DNA of 64,000 nucleotides from Povalibacter uvarum (GTDB lineage: Bacteria > Pseudomonadota > Gammaproteobacteria > Steroidobacterales > Steroidobacteraceae). The notes beneath the pieces are model-generated. The model did not search any database, had not been told where the DNA came from, and was given only the letters and a program-made list of their open reading frames with translations. Shown piece by piece: positions 1,821-9,221 of this stretch. Each line of letters opens with the position of its first letter. Within the stretch, counting starts at the first letter, position 1. The stretch lies in contig NZ_JACHHZ010000003.1 of NCBI RefSeq assembly GCF_014202975.1, positions 248,001 to 312,000 of the forward strand. Direction: 5' to 3'. Both the position numbers and the translations under genes were made by a program.

Positions 1821-2357
1821 ATGTCGGACAAGGAGAGTACCGATCTTTTTTCGTTGGCCTACGGCGAACTGCGCAGGATTGCAGCAGCTCAGATTGCACG
1901 GATGCCCCCAGCAGGTTCAACGCTTCAACCGACCGCATTGGTGCATGAGGCATGGATACGTTTTGCCAACCAGGCATCTGACTGGGAGAGTCGCGCCCAC
2001 CTTCTCTCAGCAGCAGCTGAAGCGATGCGTCATATCCTGATAGATCGAGCGCGCAAGCGACACTCCGCGCGTCATGGCGGCGGCCAGCAAAGAATCAGCG
2101 TCGATGAGATGGACATTCCGGTGAATCTGGACAATGACGATGCGGTTCTCGCGATCAACGACGCCATTGCCGATCTAGGAGTCGAGTACCCCGATGCGGC
2201 ATTGCTTGCGAAGCTTCGGTGTTTTGGTGGCTTTGAAGTCAACGAGGCGGCCCAAGCGCTAGGCATCCCGAGGGCGACAGCCTTTAGACGATGGCGTTTC
2301 GCGCGCGCTTGGCTTCACGGGTATCTACGGAAGAGCACAGAAACTCCGCAAGAATAA
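1821..2357 (+). CDS. ECF-like RNA polymerase sigma factor
   Basis: The 178-residue protein matches the ECF-type sigma factors (sigma70_ECF family) that are typically encoded next to large Ser/Thr kinases. Visible family signatures are LQPTALVHEAWIRF around residues 35-48 and AEAMRHILIDRARKR around residues 66-80 (region 2). The C-terminal part (residues 115-170) has a helix-turn-helix-like region 4, EAAQALGIPRATAFRRWRFA. The ATG has an AGGGAG ribosome site eight bases upstream. The kinase gene begins 38 bases downstream, so the two are very probably one operon, with the kinase likely tuning the sigma factor by phosphorylation. That last step is inferred from known sigma-kinase pairs. Confidence 0.88.
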   Translation: MSDKESTDLFSLAYGELRRIAAAQIARMPPAGSTLQPTALVHEAWIRFANQASDWESRAHLLSAAAEAMRHILIDRARKRHSARHGGGQQRISVDEMDIPVNLDNDDAVLAINDAIADLGVEYPDAALLAKLRCFGGFEVNEAAQALGIPRATAFRRWRFARAWLHGYLRKSTETPQE

Positions 2358-2395
2358 AGAATAAGAGCCCTTCGCGAACCTCCAGGGAGTTGGAA

Positions 2396-5338
2396 GTGCA
2401 GAAGTCATCGGTTGTCATCGAGCAGGTTCTCGACGCGGCACAGATGCTGCCGCCGGCGGAACGTGACTCCTATCTAGGTCGTGTTTGCGCGGGAGATCGC
2501 GAGCTATCGACTACGGTCCGAAGACTGCTGAACTCCGTCGACGAGGTTGACCTGTTTCTAAGGGAAACATCGGAGTCGGCCCAGTTCCAGCAGTTCGTCG
2601 ATGAGATCCCCGGCTTCAAAGTCGTTCGCCTCTTGGGAGAAGGAGGCGGCGGTTCTGTGCTGCTCGCTCAACAGTTGGTCCCCATCAAGAGGGACGTTGC
2701 GATCAAGGTCGTGAAGTTGGGCATGGATACGAAGGCGGTGGTGCGGCGCTTTGAAGCGGAACAACAGGCGCTGGGTCTGATGGATCACCCAAACATCGCC
2801 AGAGTTTTTGGTGCCGGTGCGACGGGAGATGGGCGACCGTACTTCGTCATGGAGTTAGTTAGAGGCATTCGCATTACGGATTACTGCAATCAATGTCGGC
2901 TGTCAGTGCCAGAGAGGCTGGCAGTGTTCTCGCAGGTCTGTCACGCGATCCAGCATGCACATCACAAGGGAATCATTCATCGCGACATCAAGCCTTCCAA
3001 CGTGCTGGTGACTTTGCATGACGGTATGGCAGTGGCGAAAGTCATCGACTTCGGAATCGCAAAGGCGGTTCACGGCCGATTGCTGGAGGAGACTCTCCAC
3101 ACAAACGCGGAGCACGTTGTCGGGACGCCGGCATATATGAGCCCGGAGCAGCTAATTGCCGGAATTAGCCAGGTCGACACGCGCGCAGACGTCTACAGTT
3201 TGGGAGTCTTGCTGCACGAACTCCTTGTGGGATGCACTCCTCTTGATGAGGAGAGATTGGAATGCGCCGGCTCTGAGGTGATGCGACAGAGATTGCTTAC
3301 TGAGGAGCCACTGACTCCATCGAAGCGCATCTTGGCCATGAGCTACGACGAGTCAGAGCGTGTTTGTCAGTGGAGGCAGACGGATGTCGCCCGGATCGTG
3401 CGCAGTCTGCGTGGCGATCTCGATTGGATCGTGATGCGCTGTCTCGAGAAGGAGCGCGCACGGCGCTATCAGTCGGCGAGCGAGTTGGTCCAAGACATTG
3501 ACCGGTTCATTCTCAAGTCGCCCGTACTCGCTCGCCCGCCGAGTATGGGCTACGTGGTTTCAAAGTTTGTTCGTCGCCATAAGCTCGCTGTCGCGGCATC
3601 TTCATTCAGCATGTGTGCAGTGTTCGCAGGTGCGGCCTTGGCTTCTTATCACGCAATTCGTGCGGTTGAGGCACAGGGAGTTGCGCAGCAAGTTGTGGGC
3701 TTCCTACGGGATGATCTTCTCTCGCCGGCTTCGCCAGAGTTTGAGCCGGACAGAGACATCAAGATGAGAACTGTACTGGACCGCGCAGCCGCAAAGGTGG
3801 ACACGCGATTCGTCGATCAACCGCTTGTGGAAGCGTTAGTTCGCAAGACACTCGGGCAGGCCTACGAAGCCTTGGGCGATGCAGGGCAGGCTGCTAGGCA
3901 TTTGGAGCGATCGGTTGCACTCCGTGAGCAACTGTTTGGCCCTGACGATGCTTCATTGCTTGAGACGAAGAGTTTGTTGCTGGATGTGCTCGGCCAGCAG
4001 TCGAAGTATACAAGCGCTGCTGCACTGGGCTTGAGCGTGCTTGAAGCGCAGCGGCGAATCGTCGGACCAGACCATCCCGATGCGCTCCAGACTATGGTGC
4101 GACTGGGTCGGATCTACCGTCTAACTGCAAGATATGCAGAGGCCGAGGTTCTGCATCGAGAGGCGTATGCGTCGTACCGTCGCAGACTAGGAGAGGATAA
4201 CCAGCAAACGATGGAAGCTCTACACGCCCTTGCGGCGACGCAGCTTTATCGGGGTAACTACAAAGAGGCCCAACCGTTGTTGGAGCGCGTCGTAGCATTC
4301 TCAGTTAGTTCGCTGGGTCGTCAGCATCCAGACACGATGAGTGCTCAAAGCAATTTGGCGGTTTCATACTCATATCAGGGAAAGCTTCCTCAGGCAGAAG
4401 CGATTCAACGAGAGCTGCTTGAAATACACGAGCGAGTTCTCGGAGTGGACCATCCGGAGACCCTCGTGACCCTGGAGAACTTAGCCAATACTTACGCAGA
4501 GCAAGGGAATCCGGAGGCCGCTTCATTGTTGCAACTCCGTGTGTTGGCCGCGTCGAGGAAAGTCAGGGGTGCAGAGCATCCATACACGCTGCTCACAATG
4601 GGTAGCCTGGCTGCCTCATACGAGGACATGGGACGTTTCAACGAAGCAGTGGCGCTTCGGAGCGAGGCAATATCCGTTGAGAGACGCACGCTCGGTGCTC
4701 GGCATCCGAGCACGCTGCTTTCGATGAACAACCTCGCATTCGACTATCGGATACTGGGGCGCCTACCTGAAGCCGAATCGCTACTCTTGCAAGCGACGCA
4801 GACTAGTCCCGAGGTTCTGGGGCCAGAGCACCCGGACACACTCGGCTTCCGACGAAGTCTCGCGGCCGTATACCAAGCTCAAGGCAGATTGTCAGAAGCG
4901 GCGGCGATTCTCTCAGACGTTGGTCCAACGACAAAACGAGTTCTGGGCATCAACCATCGCGATACGCTCGATTCCGCGCGAGAGCTTGCCGGCGTTTTGC
5001 TTTTGCAGCGAAAACCGAGCGAAGCAGAAGCGTTGCTCAGTGCTTCTATTCGAGAAACCCCTCTGACGGGATGGCGACTGGCTCTTGCTCGGAGTTACCT
5101 AGGTGAAGCCCTGCTGGATTTGAATCGTTTCGCAACTGCCGAGGAGCATTTATTGGCGGGGTATGCGGGTCTACTTGATTCCTCAAAGTTGATGCCGGCC
5201 CATCGGCGGCAGGAGATCGGCATGGCGGCTGCCCGTGTCGCGAGTCTATACAGACGCTGGAACAAGCCCGAAGCGGCTGCGCGATGGGAGCGGGCGATGA
5301 AAGACCACCCGATCGTCGCTTCTTCTTCGCAACCGTGA
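2396..5338 (+). CDS. Membrane Ser/Thr protein kinase with TPR array
   Basis: I start this 980-residue protein at GTG 2396, which has AGGGAG six bases before it; a longer frame runs upstream into the sigma gene but lacks a good ribosome site. Domains in order: short N-terminal region; kinase domain about residues 75-370 with glycine loop GEGGGGSV (80-87), the ATP-binding lysine in VAIKVVK (104), HRDIKPSN (from 195), DFG (218-220) and GTPAYMSPEQ; one membrane helix near 396-419; then a long array of tetratricopeptide repeats of the TPR_10/12 type, with recurring HP(D/E)T and EAE elements, to the C terminus. The topology suggests a cytoplasmic kinase and a periplasmic TPR sensor. All catalytic motifs are present. 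Codon use is less C/G-biased than in most of the window. Confidence 0.9.
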   Translation: MQKSSVVIEQVLDAAQMLPPAERDSYLGRVCAGDRELSTTVRRLLNSVDEVDLFLRETSESAQFQQFVDEIPGFKVVRLLGEGGGGSVLLAQQLVPIKRDVAIKVVKLGMDTKAVVRRFEAEQQALGLMDHPNIARVFGAGATGDGRPYFVMELVRGIRITDYCNQCRLSVPERLAVFSQVCHAIQHAHHKGIIHRDIKPSNVLVTLHDGMAVAKVIDFGIAKAVHGRLLEETLHTNAEHVVGTPAYMSPEQLIAGISQVDTRADVYSLGVLLHELLVGCTPLDEERLECAGSEVMRQRLLTEEPLTPSKRILAMSYDESERVCQWRQTDVARIVRSLRGDLDWIVMRCLEKERARRYQSASELVQDIDRFILKSPVLARPPSMGYVVSKFVRRHKLAVAASSFSMCAVFAGAALASYHAIRAVEAQGVAQQVVGFLRDDLLSPASPEFEPDRDIKMRTVLDRAAAKVDTRFVDQPLVEALVRKTLGQAYEALGDAGQAARHLERSVALREQLFGPDDASLLETKSLLLDVLGQQSKYTSAAALGLSVLEAQRRIVGPDHPDALQTMVRLGRIYRLTARYAEAEVLHREAYASYRRRLGEDNQQTMEALHALAATQLYRGNYKEAQPLLERVVAFSVSSLGRQHPDTMSAQSNLAVSYSYQGKLPQAEAIQRELLEIHERVLGVDHPETLVTLENLANTYAEQGNPEAASLLQLRVLAASRKVRGAEHPYTLLTMGSLAASYEDMGRFNEAVALRSEAISVERRTLGARHPSTLLSMNNLAFDYRILGRLPEAESLLLQATQTSPEVLGPEHPDTLGFRRSLAAVYQAQGRLSEAAAILSDVGPTTKRVLGINHRDTLDSARELAGVLLLQRKPSEAEALLSASIRETPLTGWRLALARSYLGEALLDLNRFATAEEHLLAGYAGLLDSSKLMPAHRRQEIGMAAARVASLYRRWNKPEAAARWERAMKDHPIVASSSQP

Positions 5339-5543: not shown

Positions 5544-5745
5544 CCTACTCCGCCGCCGCCAGGTCATCTGGATCGAGGTACGGAATGCCACGTCGACGAT
5601 GCCTTCGAGCCACTTGCGGAACCGATTGCCCGCCGCAGCGGCGATCGCGACGTAGAAGGCGATGTCGGCTTCGAGACCGCAGTCTTTGTCCGGAGCCAAG
5701 GCTTCCATGCACTCGATCGCGTTCCTGACAGCCGCGACTTCGAGA
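5544..5745 (-). pseudogene. Relic of a GntR/FadR-type regulator (FCD domain fragment)
   Basis: On the minus strand this stretch encodes a fragment (for example ECMEAL, LEADIAFYVAI, GNRFRKWLEGIVD, FRTSIQMT) that aligns with the FCD ligand domain of the intact regulator at 8487-9221 (ERMEAS, LEADIAFHVAI, GNRFYRRLEGIVD, LRTSIQMT). The homology is also visible in DNA: TCATCTGGATCGAGGTACG occurs at 5564-5582 and 8669-8687, and AAGGCGATGTCGGCTTCGAG occurs in both. There is no winged-helix half, no proper start, and the reading runs into unrelated sequence on both sides. It is therefore a decayed partial copy, not a working gene. Confidence 0.85.
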
Positions 5746-5797: not shown

Positions 5798-5817
5798 TAC
5801 TGTTTATATCAACAGTA
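5798..5817. promoter_or_regulatory. LexA (SOS) box upstream of the DUF222-HNH gene
   Basis: TACTGTTTATATCAACAGTA fits the gammaproteobacterial LexA consensus CTGT-N8-ACAG, with the outer TA/TA also conserved. One base further out on each side, ATACTGTT (5797-5804) and AACAGTAT (5811-5818) form a perfect 8-bp inverted repeat around a 6-base AT-rich centre. A possible -10 element, TATACT (5796-5801), overlaps the box, as expected for LexA repression. The ATG of the HNH gene is 15 bases downstream. Confidence 0.8.
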
Positions 5818-5832
5818 TCGGGACAACCGCTC

Positions 5833-7221
5833 ATGGACGCCGCCGTTTCCCTTGTTCCCACCGAACGCCCGCTCACCGACCTCGCCGCCGAAATCACCGA
5901 ACTCACCGGCCACCTGAACGCCGCGAATCATCGCTGGCTCATGCTCATCGCCGAGTTCGATCGCCGCGAAGGATGGTCGGACTGGGCGACGCAGTCGTGT
6001 GCGCATTGGTTGAACTGGAAGTGCGGCGTCGATCTCGGCGCGGCGCGCGAGAAGGTTCGTGTGGCGCATGCGTTGCAGGAGTTGCCGAAGATTTCGGAGG
6101 CCATGCAGAAAGGTCAGCTCAGTTACTCGAAGGTCCGCGCGCTCACTCGCGTCGCAGACCGGAACACAGAGGAATACCTGCTGCAGATCGCCATGCACGG
6201 CACGGCAGGTCATGTCGAGAAACTGGTGCGGCATTTCCGTCGCGCCACCGAGGCGGAGGAACTGTCGCGTGAGGTTGCGCAACAGGTCAACCGATCCTGC
6301 ACCTATCAGTGGGATGACGATGGCTCGCTGGTCTTGAAGGCACGTCTGCCGGCTGAGGCGGGTGCTCTGGTGCTGAAAGCGCTGGAAGCCGCGCTCGGCG
6401 AAATCCCGATCGAAGCAGATGATCCTGCTGCTGAGCCCGTGGACGTTTCCGCAGAAACGGAACGCTGCGCAGTCACGCCGGCTTTCAGGCTCTCACCGAG
6501 TGTTCGCCGTGCCGATGCGCTTGCGTTGGTTGCGGAAAGCTTCATCGCCAACGGACCGGCGGCCCTGACCGGCGGCGACAAGCATCAGATCGTCGTGCAC
6601 GTTTCTGCGGAAACGTTGCGCGACAGGCAAGCTGGCCGATGTGAGATCGAAGACGGGGCCGGCGTTTCCGCTGAAACGTGTCGTCGCCTGGCCTGCGATT
6701 GCAGCCTCGTGCACATCCTTGAAGACGAGCGCGGATCCGTGCTCGATGTCGGCAGGAAGACACGATCCATTCCGCCCGCCTTGCGGCGCGCCCTGAATGC
6801 ACGCGATCAGGGCTGCCGGTTCCCCGGCTGCTGCAACGGTAAGTATCTGGATGGCCATCACATCGAACATTGGGCCAACGGCGGCGCGACGAAGCTGAGC
6901 AACCTGGTCAGTCTCTGTCACTTCCATCACCGGCAGGTCCACGAAGGCGGCGTGCTTGTGCAGATTCTCGACGACGGTGCCCTGCGATTTTTCAAACCCG
7001 ATGGCGAGTCGCTCGACAGCGTCGCGCCGGGTTACTCGCAGCCGTTAGGGGATTGGAGACAGCTGCCGGCTCATAACGAGCGCAGCCACATTCGTATCAA
7101 CGCGAGTACTGCGGTGACGAAGTGGCAGGGCGAGTCGATGGACTATGGGCTGGGCGTGCAGGTGTTGATGGAGAGGGGGAGGCGGGAGCGGTTGAGGGAT
7201 GGGCGAGGCGAAGCTTGCTGA
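5833..7221 (+). CDS. DUF222 / 13E12-type protein with HNH endonuclease domain
   Basis: The 462-residue protein has an N-terminal DUF222 region (about 10-190, helical, with the conserved HWLNWKCGVDLGAAREKVRVA-like block) and a C-terminal HNH nuclease domain: C328, C333, the H342-H343 pair, N357, C362 and H365-H366. All expected HNH and zinc ligands are there. HNH proteins of this type are presumed metal-dependent DNA endonucleases; the role of the DUF222 family is unknown. I start at ATG 5833, directly behind a LexA box, rather than at upstream ATGs inside the regulator relic. Three near-palindromic 16-mers in the linker between the domains each encode VSAET (from residues 205, 257 and 278). 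It stands alone, flanked by decayed genes, in an accessory patch. Confidence 0.88.
   Translation: MDAAVSLVPTERPLTDLAAEITELTGHLNAANHRWLMLIAEFDRREGWSDWATQSCAHWLNWKCGVDLGAAREKVRVAHALQELPKISEAMQKGQLSYSKVRALTRVADRNTEEYLLQIAMHGTAGHVEKLVRHFRRATEAEELSREVAQQVNRSCTYQWDDDGSLVLKARLPAEAGALVLKALEAALGEIPIEADDPAAEPVDVSAETERCAVTPAFRLSPSVRRADALALVAESFIANGPAALTGGDKHQIVVHVSAETLRDRQAGRCEIEDGAGVSAETCRRLACDCSLVHILEDERGSVLDVGRKTRSIPPALRRALNARDQGCRFPGCCNGKYLDGHHIEHWANGGATKLSNLVSLCHFHHRQVHEGGVLVQILDDGALRFFKPDGESLDSVAPGYSQPLGDWRQLPAHNERSHIRINASTAVTKWQGESMDYGLGVQVLMERGRRERLRDGRGEAC
6444..6459. repeat. In-gene near-palindrome, copy 1
   Basis: CGTTTCCGCAGAAACG: 6-bp arms CGTTTC/GAAACG around CGCA. It reads GTT TCC GCA GAA ACG, VSAET, in the HNH gene. 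It differs from the perfect palindrome CGTTTCCGCGGAAACG at one base. Confidence 0.85.
6600..6615. repeat. In-gene near-palindrome, copy 2
   Basis: CGTTTCTGCGGAAACG, same arms, centre TGCG; again codes VSAET in the same frame. The difference from copy 1 is confined to third codon positions of Ser and Ala. Confidence 0.85.
6663..6678. repeat. In-gene near-palindrome, copy 3
   Basis: CGTTTCCGCTGAAACG, same arms, centre CGCT; codes VSAET for the third time. Copies 2 and 3 start 63 bases apart, copies 1 and 2 start 156 bases apart. Confidence 0.85.
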
Positions 7222-7343: not shown

Positions 7344-8364
7344 CGACGTCCCCCCACTTTTCAGTAGCACGGTGATTTAGAGTCCGACCCCATGTGAGGA
7401 GGTTGGACGTGAAGAAGAAGCGATACACCGAGGAGCAGATCATCGGCTTTCTGCGCGAGGCCGATGCCGGCGTGCCGGTGAAGGATCTGTGCCGCAAGCA
7501 CGGATTTTCGGAAGCCAGCTACTACCTGTGGCGCAGCAAGTTCGGCGGGATGGATGTGTCGGACGCGAAGCGGCTGAAGGCGCTGGAGGCGGAGAACGCG
7601 AAGCTGAAGAAGCTGCTGGCCGAGGCGATGCTGGAGAACGAGGTGCGCGTGAAGCGCTCCGAAAAAAGTGGTGAGCGCACCGGCCCGACGGGAGCTGGTG
7701 CGCTGGATGACACCGTGAACCACAAGCGGGTGGATCGGCTCTACGCGCTGGAGAAGCTGCAGATCAAGCGCCGGCGACGCAAGAAGGTGCCGGTGGCCGA
7801 TCGCCAGCCGCTGATCCGACCCGAGGCGGCCAACGAAGTGTGGTCGATGGATTTCGTGTTCGATCGCGTCGCGGGTGGACGTGCCATCAAGAACCTGGTG
7901 ATCGTGGACGATGCGACGCACGAAGCGGTGGCGATTGTGCCGGCCCACAGCATCAGCGGTCAGCAGGTCGTGCGCATTCTCGAACGGATCGGTGCCGATC
8001 GTGGTCTGCCGAGGATCATCCGCACAGACAATGGCAAGGAGTTCTGTGGCAAGGCGATGCTGACCTGGGCGCACGAGCGAGGCATCGCGCTACGACTCAT
8101 CGAACCAGGCAAGCCGAATCAGAACGCGTATGTCGAATCGTTCAATGGCCGATTCCGCGACGAGTGCCTCAACGAACACTGGTTCACTTCTCTCGCGCAC
8201 GCTCAGGTTGTGATCGAGACCTGGCGACGTGAGTACAACGAGGAACGACCGAAGAAGGCGCTCGGCGGGCTGACGCCGGCTGCCTACGCGAAGCAATTGG
8301 CAACGAAGACGGTTACAGTAACGCCGGACTCTAATTCAACCGCTACTGAAGGCGGGGGGACGTC
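7344..8364 (+). mobile_element. IS3-family element with internal deletion
   Basis: The ends form an inverted repeat: GACGTCCCCCC at 7345-7355 against its complement at 8354-8364. Similarity continues inward for about 40 bases, including TTCAGTAGC and TTAGAGTCCG on both sides. GAAGA occurs immediately outside both ends (7339-7343 and 8365-8369) if the element is taken as 7344-8364, a possible 5-bp target duplication. At about 1.02 kb it is shorter than the roughly 1.2 kb usual for IS3-family members, consistent with the deletion seen in the transposase gene. It sits between the two halves of a broken toxin-antitoxin module. Confidence 0.8.
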
Positions 8365-8377
8365 GAAGAGGAGCTGA
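7409..8377 (+). pseudogene. Fused, internally deleted IS3-type transposase (OrfA-OrfB)
   Basis: I start at GTG 7409, preceded by AGGAGG (7397-7402). The first ~85 residues are a normal OrfA: HTH (YTEEQIIGFLREADAG, DLCRKHGFSEASYYLWR) and leucine zipper (LKALEAENAKLKKLLAEAM). OrfB of related elements starts with a ~60-residue HTH_21 segment; here the frame passes over a short garbled stretch (VRVKRSEKSGERTGP) straight to VNHKRVDRLY. The rve/DDE domain is complete: D in WSMDFV, D in RTDNGKEF, E in NAYVESF. The A6G slippery site CGAAAAAAG survives but is now read through in one frame, owing to a small deletion before it and a large one after it. The protein continues past the IS end to 8377. Probably inactive, though the catalytic triad is intact. 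Confidence 0.8.
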
Positions 8378-8486: not shown

Positions 8487-9221
8487 CTAGCGTGCCTTAG
8501 CAGCTACCGCCGTCTTCTCCGCCTGCTCCGCCGCCACCAGATCAATCACTTCCTGAATCAGCTCCTGCATCCGCTTCCCGGCAAGCGATGCGTTCCCCTG
8601 TTCAATGGCTTCGAACACCGCGCGATGCGCGTCGACGTCGGCCTGTGGGACGCCCTTGGCACGGTTGGTCATCTGGATCGAGGTACGCAAGGCGGCATCG
8701 ACGATGCCCTCGAGGCGCCTGTAGAAGCGGTTGCCGGTCGCATCGAGGATCGCGACGTGAAAGGCGATGTCGGCTTCGAGTGAATCCTCTTCACCGCGGG
8801 TCGAGGCTTCCATGCGCTCGATCGCGTGCCTGATGGGGGCGACGGTTTCCGGCGTGGCGCGCATTGCGGCGAGTCGTGAGGCTGTCGGTTCGATGGCGAG
8901 GCGGACTTCGCTGAACTGGGCCAGGAGCTCGAGCGAGAACTTGCGTTCGAGCAGCCAGCGCAGCACGTCGGGATCGAGGAGGTTCCACTGCGCTTCGGGC
9001 AGGATCGAGGTGCCGTGGCGCGGGCGGGAGGAGATCAGGCCCTTCGCCGTGAGCATCTTCACCGCTTCGCGCACGATGCTGCGGCTCGAGCCGAACTGCT
9101 TGCACAGTTCGGCTTCGATGGGGAAGGGATTGCGGGTGCTGTACTTGCCCGTGACGATGGCGACGCCAAGGCTGTTCACGATGCCCGTCGTGACATTGTG
9201 GCCCTGGCGGGTTTTCGTCAT
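8487..9221 (-). CDS. dgoR: GntR-family FCD regulator, probably of the galactonate operon
   Basis: The 244-residue protein has an N-terminal GntR winged helix (residues ~10-80: FPIEAELCKQFGSSRSIVREAVKML, RPRHGTSI) and a C-terminal FCD ligand domain (95-230) with the metal-site pattern of the FadR subfamily (DIAFHVAI, GNRF, HRAVFEAI). It is the last gene of a minus-strand operon with dgoK, dgoA and a sodium symporter; its start overlaps the symporter stop (TAATG at 9221). By position it is probably the repressor of this operon, responding to a sugar acid such as galactonate or 2-keto-3-deoxygalactonate. The symbol rests on context. A decayed fragment of a paralogue lies at 5544-5745. Confidence 0.82.
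   Translation of the reverse strand: MTKTRQGHNVTTGIVNSLGVAIVTGKYSTRNPFPIEAELCKQFGSSRSIVREAVKMLTAKGLISSRPRHGTSILPEAQWNLLDPDVLRWLLERKFSLELLAQFSEVRLAIEPTASRLAAMRATPETVAPIRHAIERMEASTRGEEDSLEADIAFHVAILDATGNRFYRRLEGIVDAALRTSIQMTNRAKGVPQADVDAHRAVFEAIEQGNASLAGKRMQELIQEVIDLVAAEQAEKTAVAAKAR

Follow-up and report, generated by a model that had tools for sequence, protein, structure and literature searches.

Palindromes inside a DUF222-HNH gene as candidate binding sites of its own product, with a predicted ParB/Noc-like domain

The DUF222-HNH gene and its three dyads

The stretch of DNA analysed here (the window) comprises 64,000 nucleotides of Povalibacter uvarum (contig NZ_JACHHZ010000003.1, positions 248,001 to 312,000). 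At its centre of interest lies a gene whose product matches the Pfam families DUF222 (E=8.1e-26) and HNH (E=7.7e-05), both above the cut-off. We placed the start of the gene at position 5833, the ATG at which its homologues begin (the mechanical list of open reading frames gives 5662), and it is the single DUF222 match in the genome of 6,321,800 bases. The gene and the elements in and before it are:

5800..5815, plus strand: LexA-type SOS box CTGTTTATATCAACAG, 17 bases before the ATG
5833..7221, plus strand: DUF222-HNH gene, 462 aa, Pfam DUF222 and HNH
6444..6459, no strand assigned: dyad 1, CGTTTCCGCAGAAACG, read VSAET (residues 205-209), where the structural model has low confidence
6600..6615, no strand assigned: dyad 2, CGTTTCTGCGGAAACG, read VSAET (residues 257-261), after VVVH
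6663..6678, no strand assigned: dyad 3, CGTTTCCGCTGAAACG, read VSAET (residues 278-282), before RRLAC
6832..6942, plus strand: HNH nuclease motif (residues 334-370), Pfam HNH

The HNH region has His, Asn and Cys residues that are invariant among 67 aligned proteins, and in Foldseek a model of the whole protein weakly resembles EcoKMcrA (probability 0.92) and the Gme HNH nicking enzyme (0.77), with E > 0.3.

As to the neighbourhood, a protein kinase with TPR repeats is encoded upstream at 2291-5338, and a transposase with HTH_Tnp_1 and rve domains, which we take to be of the IS3 type, lies directly 3' of the gene at 7394-8377. A repeat of about 167 bases (79% identical) occurs at 5562-5728, just upstream of the DUF222 gene, and again at 8667-8833, where it overlaps a minus-strand gene (8487-9221) that reads as GntR-type from its sequence.

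An earlier note on this DNA had described three copies of CGTTTCNGCNGAAACG in one frame, all encoding VSAET, varying only at bases 7 and 10 and accompanied by no further copy in the window. We confirmed each of these points in the frame of the ORF ending at 7221: the window holds exactly three copies of the 16-mer pattern CGTTTCNNNNGAAACG, a count reached by 0 of 100 dinucleotide shuffles (mean 0.00). Allowing up to two mismatches raises the window count to five, the two additional matches being at chance level (shuffle mean 3.32). The 14-base core GTTTCNGCNGAAAC has three copies in the whole genome, all of them in the window gene, and its backwards control has none.

Selection on the dyads at the DNA level

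To place the dyads among relatives, one scan of genome contigs was used, which brought up 124 relatives, and the best 80 loci were retained. In these best 80 of the 124, the core TTTCNGCNGAAA occurs 87 times within the DUF222 ORFs (115.8 kb) against 4 times in their flanks (321.8 kb); two of the four flank copies follow the ORF at a distance of no more than 150 bases, and one follows the broken ORF of locus L111. When synonymous codons were permuted within 81 genes, the 90 observed cores fell to a mean of 6.3 (maximum 12), and the 158 perfect palindromes with six-base arms and a four-base centre to a mean of 54 (maximum 75). The suggestion of the earlier note that the motif is maintained as one unit of DNA is thus borne out, since synonymous shuffles remove it, and we regard selection at the DNA level on the dyad as shown by computation.

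In the protein alignment the dyads occupy many positions: some lie in the linker, others follow VVVH, precede RRLAC or come after HNH. They are also read in several frames, giving VSAET, RFRGN (behind HNH) or FPRK (L096). Both arms co-vary across lineages, as in CGTTCC with VPAGT, CGATTC with DSAES, CGTTAC with VTAVT and GTCTTC with SSAED, and also in CGTCTC. Because the dyad occurs in several frames, changes on both sides of its arms and disappears in synonymous shuffles, it is not an effect of the peptide. The site before RRLAC, readable in 70 of 89 genes, has perfectly matching arms in 26 of these 70, compared with a mean of 14.4 and a maximum of 22 when arms were re-paired among genes.

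At this same site the dyad fills ordinary aligned codons, the column existing with and without a dyad; the linker sites fall in a gap-rich part of the alignment. Decayed repeat copies display substitutions and one-base gaps, and no loss of 16 bases was seen among them. Together, the ordinary codons before RRLAC and the decayed copies without a 16-base loss make a mobile insert unnecessary, and the earlier note's proposal of a mobile palindrome tolerated in the linker appears improbable. Another proposal of the same note, a recognition site of the encoded protein, stands as the best explanation, but not its restriction to the linker, given the dyads before RRLAC, after VVVH, behind HNH and in other frames.

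Counts in whole genomes extend the picture. The pattern GTTTCNGCNGAAAC is present in 45 of 49 relatives' genomes, with 206 occurrences against 29 for the backwards pattern; among 274 evenly drawn Gammaproteobacteria, this loose pattern is found in 63 and DUF222 in 7. For CGTTTCNGCNGAAACG, ten relatives' genomes contain 65 copies and the control has 0, so that the motif stands far above its control there; occurrence at chance level would have spoken against the earlier reading. DUF222 ORFs account for 30 of these copies, and the 35 others include 12 in genome G278. Chance as the origin of the dyads is ruled out by the shuffles, by the genome-wide count and by the comparison of relatives' genomes with the control.

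Arm classes, solo sites and gene copies

The 89 genes hold 110 perfect dyads, which fall into eight arm classes, CGTTTC (79) and CGTTCC (15) being the largest. At least one perfect dyad of a known class is present in 69 of the 89 genes; most of the other 20 have one with a single mismatch. Genes with several sites tend to keep to one class (29 of 32; shuffled mean 17.2, maximum 24), and on a quick tree of 87 proteins, in which 'none' and mixed classes count as states, class needs at least 25 changes.

The class of the solo sites, those outside DUF222 genes, mostly matches that of the resident gene, with exceptions. Three Burkholderiales genomes with CGTTCC-class DUF222 genes, which are close relatives and thus not three independent cases, carry 18, 16 and 9 copies of CGTTCCNGCNGGAACG, against 5 in 21 other genomes, and CGTTTCCGCGGAAACG was not found in these three. 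Genome G286 has six CGATTC dyads, every one of them within a DUF222 gene: three such genes carry a pair each, spaced by 654 bases (the third gene, near a contig end, appears as two ORFs). The CGTTTC sites of G286 are found in other DUF222 genes (L059, L150) and at solo places; one genome thus holds two DUF222 subfamilies, each with its own dyad. Beyond G286, CGATTC dyads occur in only one of 15 other genomes (G327), one in gene L051 and one solo. Both CGTTTC and CGTTCC are present in G325, G304 and G307. Gene L086 of G304 itself holds both classes, and two further CGTTCC sites there are solo. G325 is a contrary case: its DUF222 genes are of the CGTTCC class, yet three of its four solo sites are CGTTTC.

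In three genes (L038, L044 and L111) the usual dyad is replaced by a 20-bp perfect palindrome, AATCCTCCACGTGGAGGATT, whose centre resembles parS. Of the genomes of L038 and L044, one has a single copy of its 18-base core and the other two copies; 8 other genomes have none.

The site extends beyond 16 bp. A purine precedes the 16-mer in 128 of 129 DUF222-gene sites and 78 of 82 solo sites, and a pyrimidine follows it in 122 of the 129 and 78 of the 82, counts that are partly dependent through overlapping loci and solo sites within repeat families. The consensus is R-CGTTTCNGCNGAAACG-Y. Within the window gene, dyads 2 and 3 fit on both sides, and dyad 1 has A before and G behind. Apart from R..Y, the solo sites as a set have little in common beyond the 16-mer.

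The first 36 regions, picked outside known DUF222 loci, contained 4 sites in DUF222 genes and 34 elsewhere, and the next 60 regions 20 and 59. Under crude gene calling, most solo sites fall outside called genes, in 23 convergent, 28 co-directional and 4 divergent intervals (convergent versus divergent, p = 0.0003 with each member of a repeat family counted). Solo sites are thus scarce between divergent genes (4, compared with 23 between convergent ones, again with crude calling), and a role as promoter operators was rejected. The idea that the dyads form hairpin tips, which came from attC-like and inverted-repeat contexts, also failed as a general rule, with extended pairing in 9 of 82 solo sites and 10 of 129 DUF222-gene sites.

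Some solo sites stand in distinctive surroundings. Locus L154 (3486-5026) holds a 98-base repeat three times, each copy with a dyad, between small genes in a cassette-like array; by reading, these genes look like HigA/HigB-type toxin-antitoxin genes. Attachment-like sites of the attC kind with a central dyad, one of the CGTTCC and three of the CGTTTC class, occur in L237 (3578 and 6278), L238 (4034) and L239 (3978), which by reading have the look of integron cassette arrays. Four contig starts of G322 (L189, L191, L194, L196) have a CGTTCC-class dyad within 23 bases, in the same sequence, so that the assembly appears to break at a repeat present in many copies.

Upstream of the genes, an exact CTGTN8ACAG lies between -250 and +100 relative to the match start at 38 of the 77 loci with enough upstream sequence, against 4 in 311 kb elsewhere; LexA would be expected to bind these boxes. 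Where gene copies lie in different surroundings, the block that they share begins at the box (L052/L062, L058/L065) or close to it (L112/L114), and in most pairs compared it ends near the stop. More of the upstream or downstream sequence is shared in L035/L036, L050/L052, L059/L060 and L080/L086. Several copies may reside in one genome, with seven DUF222 matches in G167 and several genes in G281.

Predicted fold, recognition helix and candidate function

Structural modelling and comparisons among the relatives point to two features of the DUF222 part:

5998..6237, plus strand: predicted ParB/Noc-like helix-turn-helix part of DUF222 (residues 56-135), from AlphaFold2, Foldseek and a sub-cut-off Pfam HTH_ParB match
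6034..6078, plus strand: predicted recognition helix (residues 68-82) with the class-marking G69 and R72, a helix in both models

AlphaFold2 modelled the whole protein with a mean pLDDT of 81.9, the three VSAET stretches lying in low-confidence blocks (means 51-63), and the N-terminal domain alone with 90.6. With the whole model, Foldseek returned a noisy list in which Noc has probability 0.90 (rank 21) and Spo0J-parS 0.63 (rank 45). The N-terminal model matched Noc 7ng0 with probability 1.00 (2.4 A over 108 columns), ParB 6sdk_A and 7bnr_B with 0.98 each and Spo0J 1vz0_E with 0.97; among its best 50 rows, all those with probability of at least 0.89 belong to the ParB/Noc family and all others have at most 0.44. 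The E-values for ParB/Noc are 0.13 or worse (0.13-0.24 for Noc and ParB), and by E-value an unrelated receptor comes first (0.091, with a probability of 0.44); the fold likeness therefore rests on the probability scale. In the model, the N-terminal domain of DUF222 has a predicted ParB/Noc-like fold.

Any homology in sequence between DUF222 and ParB appears weak. The Pfam model HTH_ParB matches the window protein with E=0.014 and 16.0 bits (cut-off 22.6), and matches of any kind to it occur in 4 of 40 DUF222 members. Profile-profile alignment against ParB with hhalign gave a probability of 1% and an E of 0.053. A model built from 11 ParB sequences of relatives had a best E of 0.14 for DUF222 and 0.21 for shuffles, and up to E 1.2 it matched nine of the 73 DUF222 proteins and three of the 365 shuffled sequences. 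At E<=0.001 the whole protein gave no hit to the ParB nucleotide-binding (CTPase) domain.

The helix at residues 68-82 is the second helix of the predicted helix-turn-helix. Across 73 genes with a class and 436 alignment columns, we looked for residues common to a whole class and absent from all others. For the CGATTC class the sole such column is 69, with valine in 3 of 3 genes and 0 of 70 others, and the three genes occupy two separate places of the tree. For GTCTTC/CTCTTC it is again a single column of the 436, with H72 in 2 of 2 genes, which form one small clade, and in 0 of 71 others. The CGTCTC class (3 genes, one clade) is marked outside the helix, by K136 and H276, and many of the 25 columns richest in class information also lie outside it. 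Tests of independent pairs on the tree mostly agree in direction but, at 2-4 pairs and p of 0.25-1, are much too small. Three Granulosicoccus genes (L110, L112, L114) have V69, yet no dyad of a known class; L038 and L044, with the 20-bp palindrome, have cysteine at position 69. A code at residue 79 (H, R and N with T, C and A at base 5) was discarded, with L042, L088, L105 and L107 among the exceptions; this residue does not rank top once lineages are collapsed.

A further relation concerns residue 72. In ParB, R173 bonds guanine 1 of parS (PMC7383237). In the local match of L100 to the ParB model, R72 aligns with the second arginine of GRSR in ParB; the local match of the window protein begins later, so the equivalence there would follow from homology among DUF222 proteins. 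Base 2 of the 16-mer, taken as parS guanine 1 and a base at which parS and NBS differ, is T in both genes with H72. R72 would thus be lost exactly where the guanine is lost, a relation sought after the data had been seen and hence a strong lead rather than a test. Dyad and recognition helix seem to have changed together in evolution.

Like the DUF222 dyad, parS (TGTTTCACGTGAAACA) and NBS (TATTTCCCGGGAAATA) are 16-bp dyads (PMC7383237), and the arms GTTTC/TTTC are common to all three; the outer base and the centre differ. ParB/Noc and DUF222 would further share the helix-turn-helix fold (in the model), a specificity apparently set by few recognition-helix residues, and sites that may be scattered. 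Unlike ParB/Noc, the DUF222 gene has an HNH nuclease, a LexA-type box and several sites inside its own ORF. In B. subtilis, a parS site lies within spo0J. The host parS, TGTTYCACGTGRAACA, has two copies in the Povalibacter genome and is present in 13 of 16 genomes overall; being a separate sequence, it rules out the dyads as the host centromere site. A reported fusion of a ParB-related domain to HNH (PMC12704722) parallels the architecture proposed here, with the difference that it involves the CTPase fold, whereas in DUF222 it would be the helix-turn-helix part; DUF222 is absent from the main text of that article. The mycobacterial 13E12/REP13E12 family bears the Pfam name DUF222/HNH (PMC10589994), and its members have been reported as belonging to the LexA regulon and as resembling mobile elements (PMC5005354, citing Davis et al. 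2002); in domains, repeated genes and LexA-regulon reports it is like the family of the window gene. Two actinobacterial plasmid genes (L244, L245), which make up the sample of Actinobacteria here, carry no such dyads. Our literature search, beyond whose coverage most subscription journals lie, returned no description of such dyads in DUF222 genes.

Taken globally, these observations lead to the explanation that the palindromes are candidate binding sites of the gene's own product, a protein with a ParB/Noc-like domain and an HNH effector, to which we assign a probability of about 0.72. DUF222 would be a helix-turn-helix domain reading a parS/NBS-like dyad, R-CGTTTCNGCNGAAACG-Y, with HNH as the effector. 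Upon DNA damage, LexA repression would be lifted and the protein made; it would then load on the gene that encodes it and, in certain genomes, on solo sites as well. Brought to its own gene in this way, the nuclease would limit its own production, whether by occupying the gene or by nicking or cutting it. Binding, LexA control and the effect of loading are steps that we infer. That the dyads are recognised by their own protein is, for a case built purely by computation, well supported and quite probable; that self-limitation is the main use of the internal sites is a tentative proposal, with chances slightly below even. As to the consequence of loading, we favour self-limitation first and self-targeted recombination second. 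More broadly, and with odds just above even, DUF222 would form a third ParB/Noc-type branch with its own dyad code, and its genes would be self-addressed, SOS-driven mobile genes with copies of a centromere-like site of their own within the coding sequence, in any frame, site and helix coevolving and nucleases kept to their own genes.

DUF222 is currently a domain of unknown function, and the explanation, if true, would give it a fold, a DNA code, a testable target and natural specificity variants. Coding DNA would then double as several sites for its own product, with a DNA constraint overriding the peptide, and the evolution of ParB/Noc specificity would reach nucleases.

Self-targeting could alternatively serve spread, an SOS-induced nuclease cutting dyads both within the gene that encodes it and at solo places, and recombinational repair then homogenising or moving the gene in a homing-like manner. 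Gene copies in different surroundings share little beyond the gene and the LexA box, genomes such as G167 and G281 hold several copies, and the agreement of class within a gene fits conversion. On the other hand, a homing gene destroys its site by its presence, whereas the DUF222 gene carries its own sites, and solo sites of its own class exist and are not avoided. We consider this account rather unlikely, and a role of the dyads in recombination possible.

Short palindromes can also be mobile in their own right. REP elements with RAYT transposases are such palindromes, often 3' extragenic and tied to one gene family, and Rickettsia has in-frame palindromic elements. A palindrome of either kind, spreading by itself and merely tolerated in the gene, would agree with the solo copies in many DUF222-bearing genomes and with the excess of convergent over divergent extragenic sites (23 versus 4), some within repeat families. 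We hold it to be improbable: the window's own genome lacks a solo copy, class follows the DUF222 subfamily even inside one genome, the decayed repeats display no 16-base indel, and the solo sites share little past the 16-mer but R..Y. In contrast to REP/RAYT, the DUF222 dyads lie inside the gene, with few solo copies, and a Y1 transposase domain was not found in the window protein, whose only matches at E<=0.001 are DUF222 and HNH.

An RNA hairpin in the mRNA, for translation control or stability, would use the capacity of the 16-mer to fold into a stem of 6 bp closed by a loop of 4 bases. RNA pairing is disfavoured by the small share of G-U types among the one-mismatch sites (7 of 51, with A.A and C.A together at 28 of 51), and most solo sites lie outside called genes; this reading seems very improbable. 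Selection on the peptide, with VSAET conserved and the DNA repeating through codon bias, could appeal to three identical pentapeptides in one gene, and is refuted as sole cause by dyads kept with other peptides and frames and by the synonymous shuffles, which leaves it hardly any likelihood.

Cargo of phages or plasmids was rejected as a general setting: a single match came from 50,697 phage records and three from 72,556 plasmid records, and a scan of viral contigs confirmed no relative. One DUF222 gene, 39% identical to the window gene and with R at the place of H79, lies on a scaffold labelled Bacteriophage sp. (L246), where a 22-bp palindrome at 3722 holds CGTTCCCGCGGGAACG and is read VPAGT.
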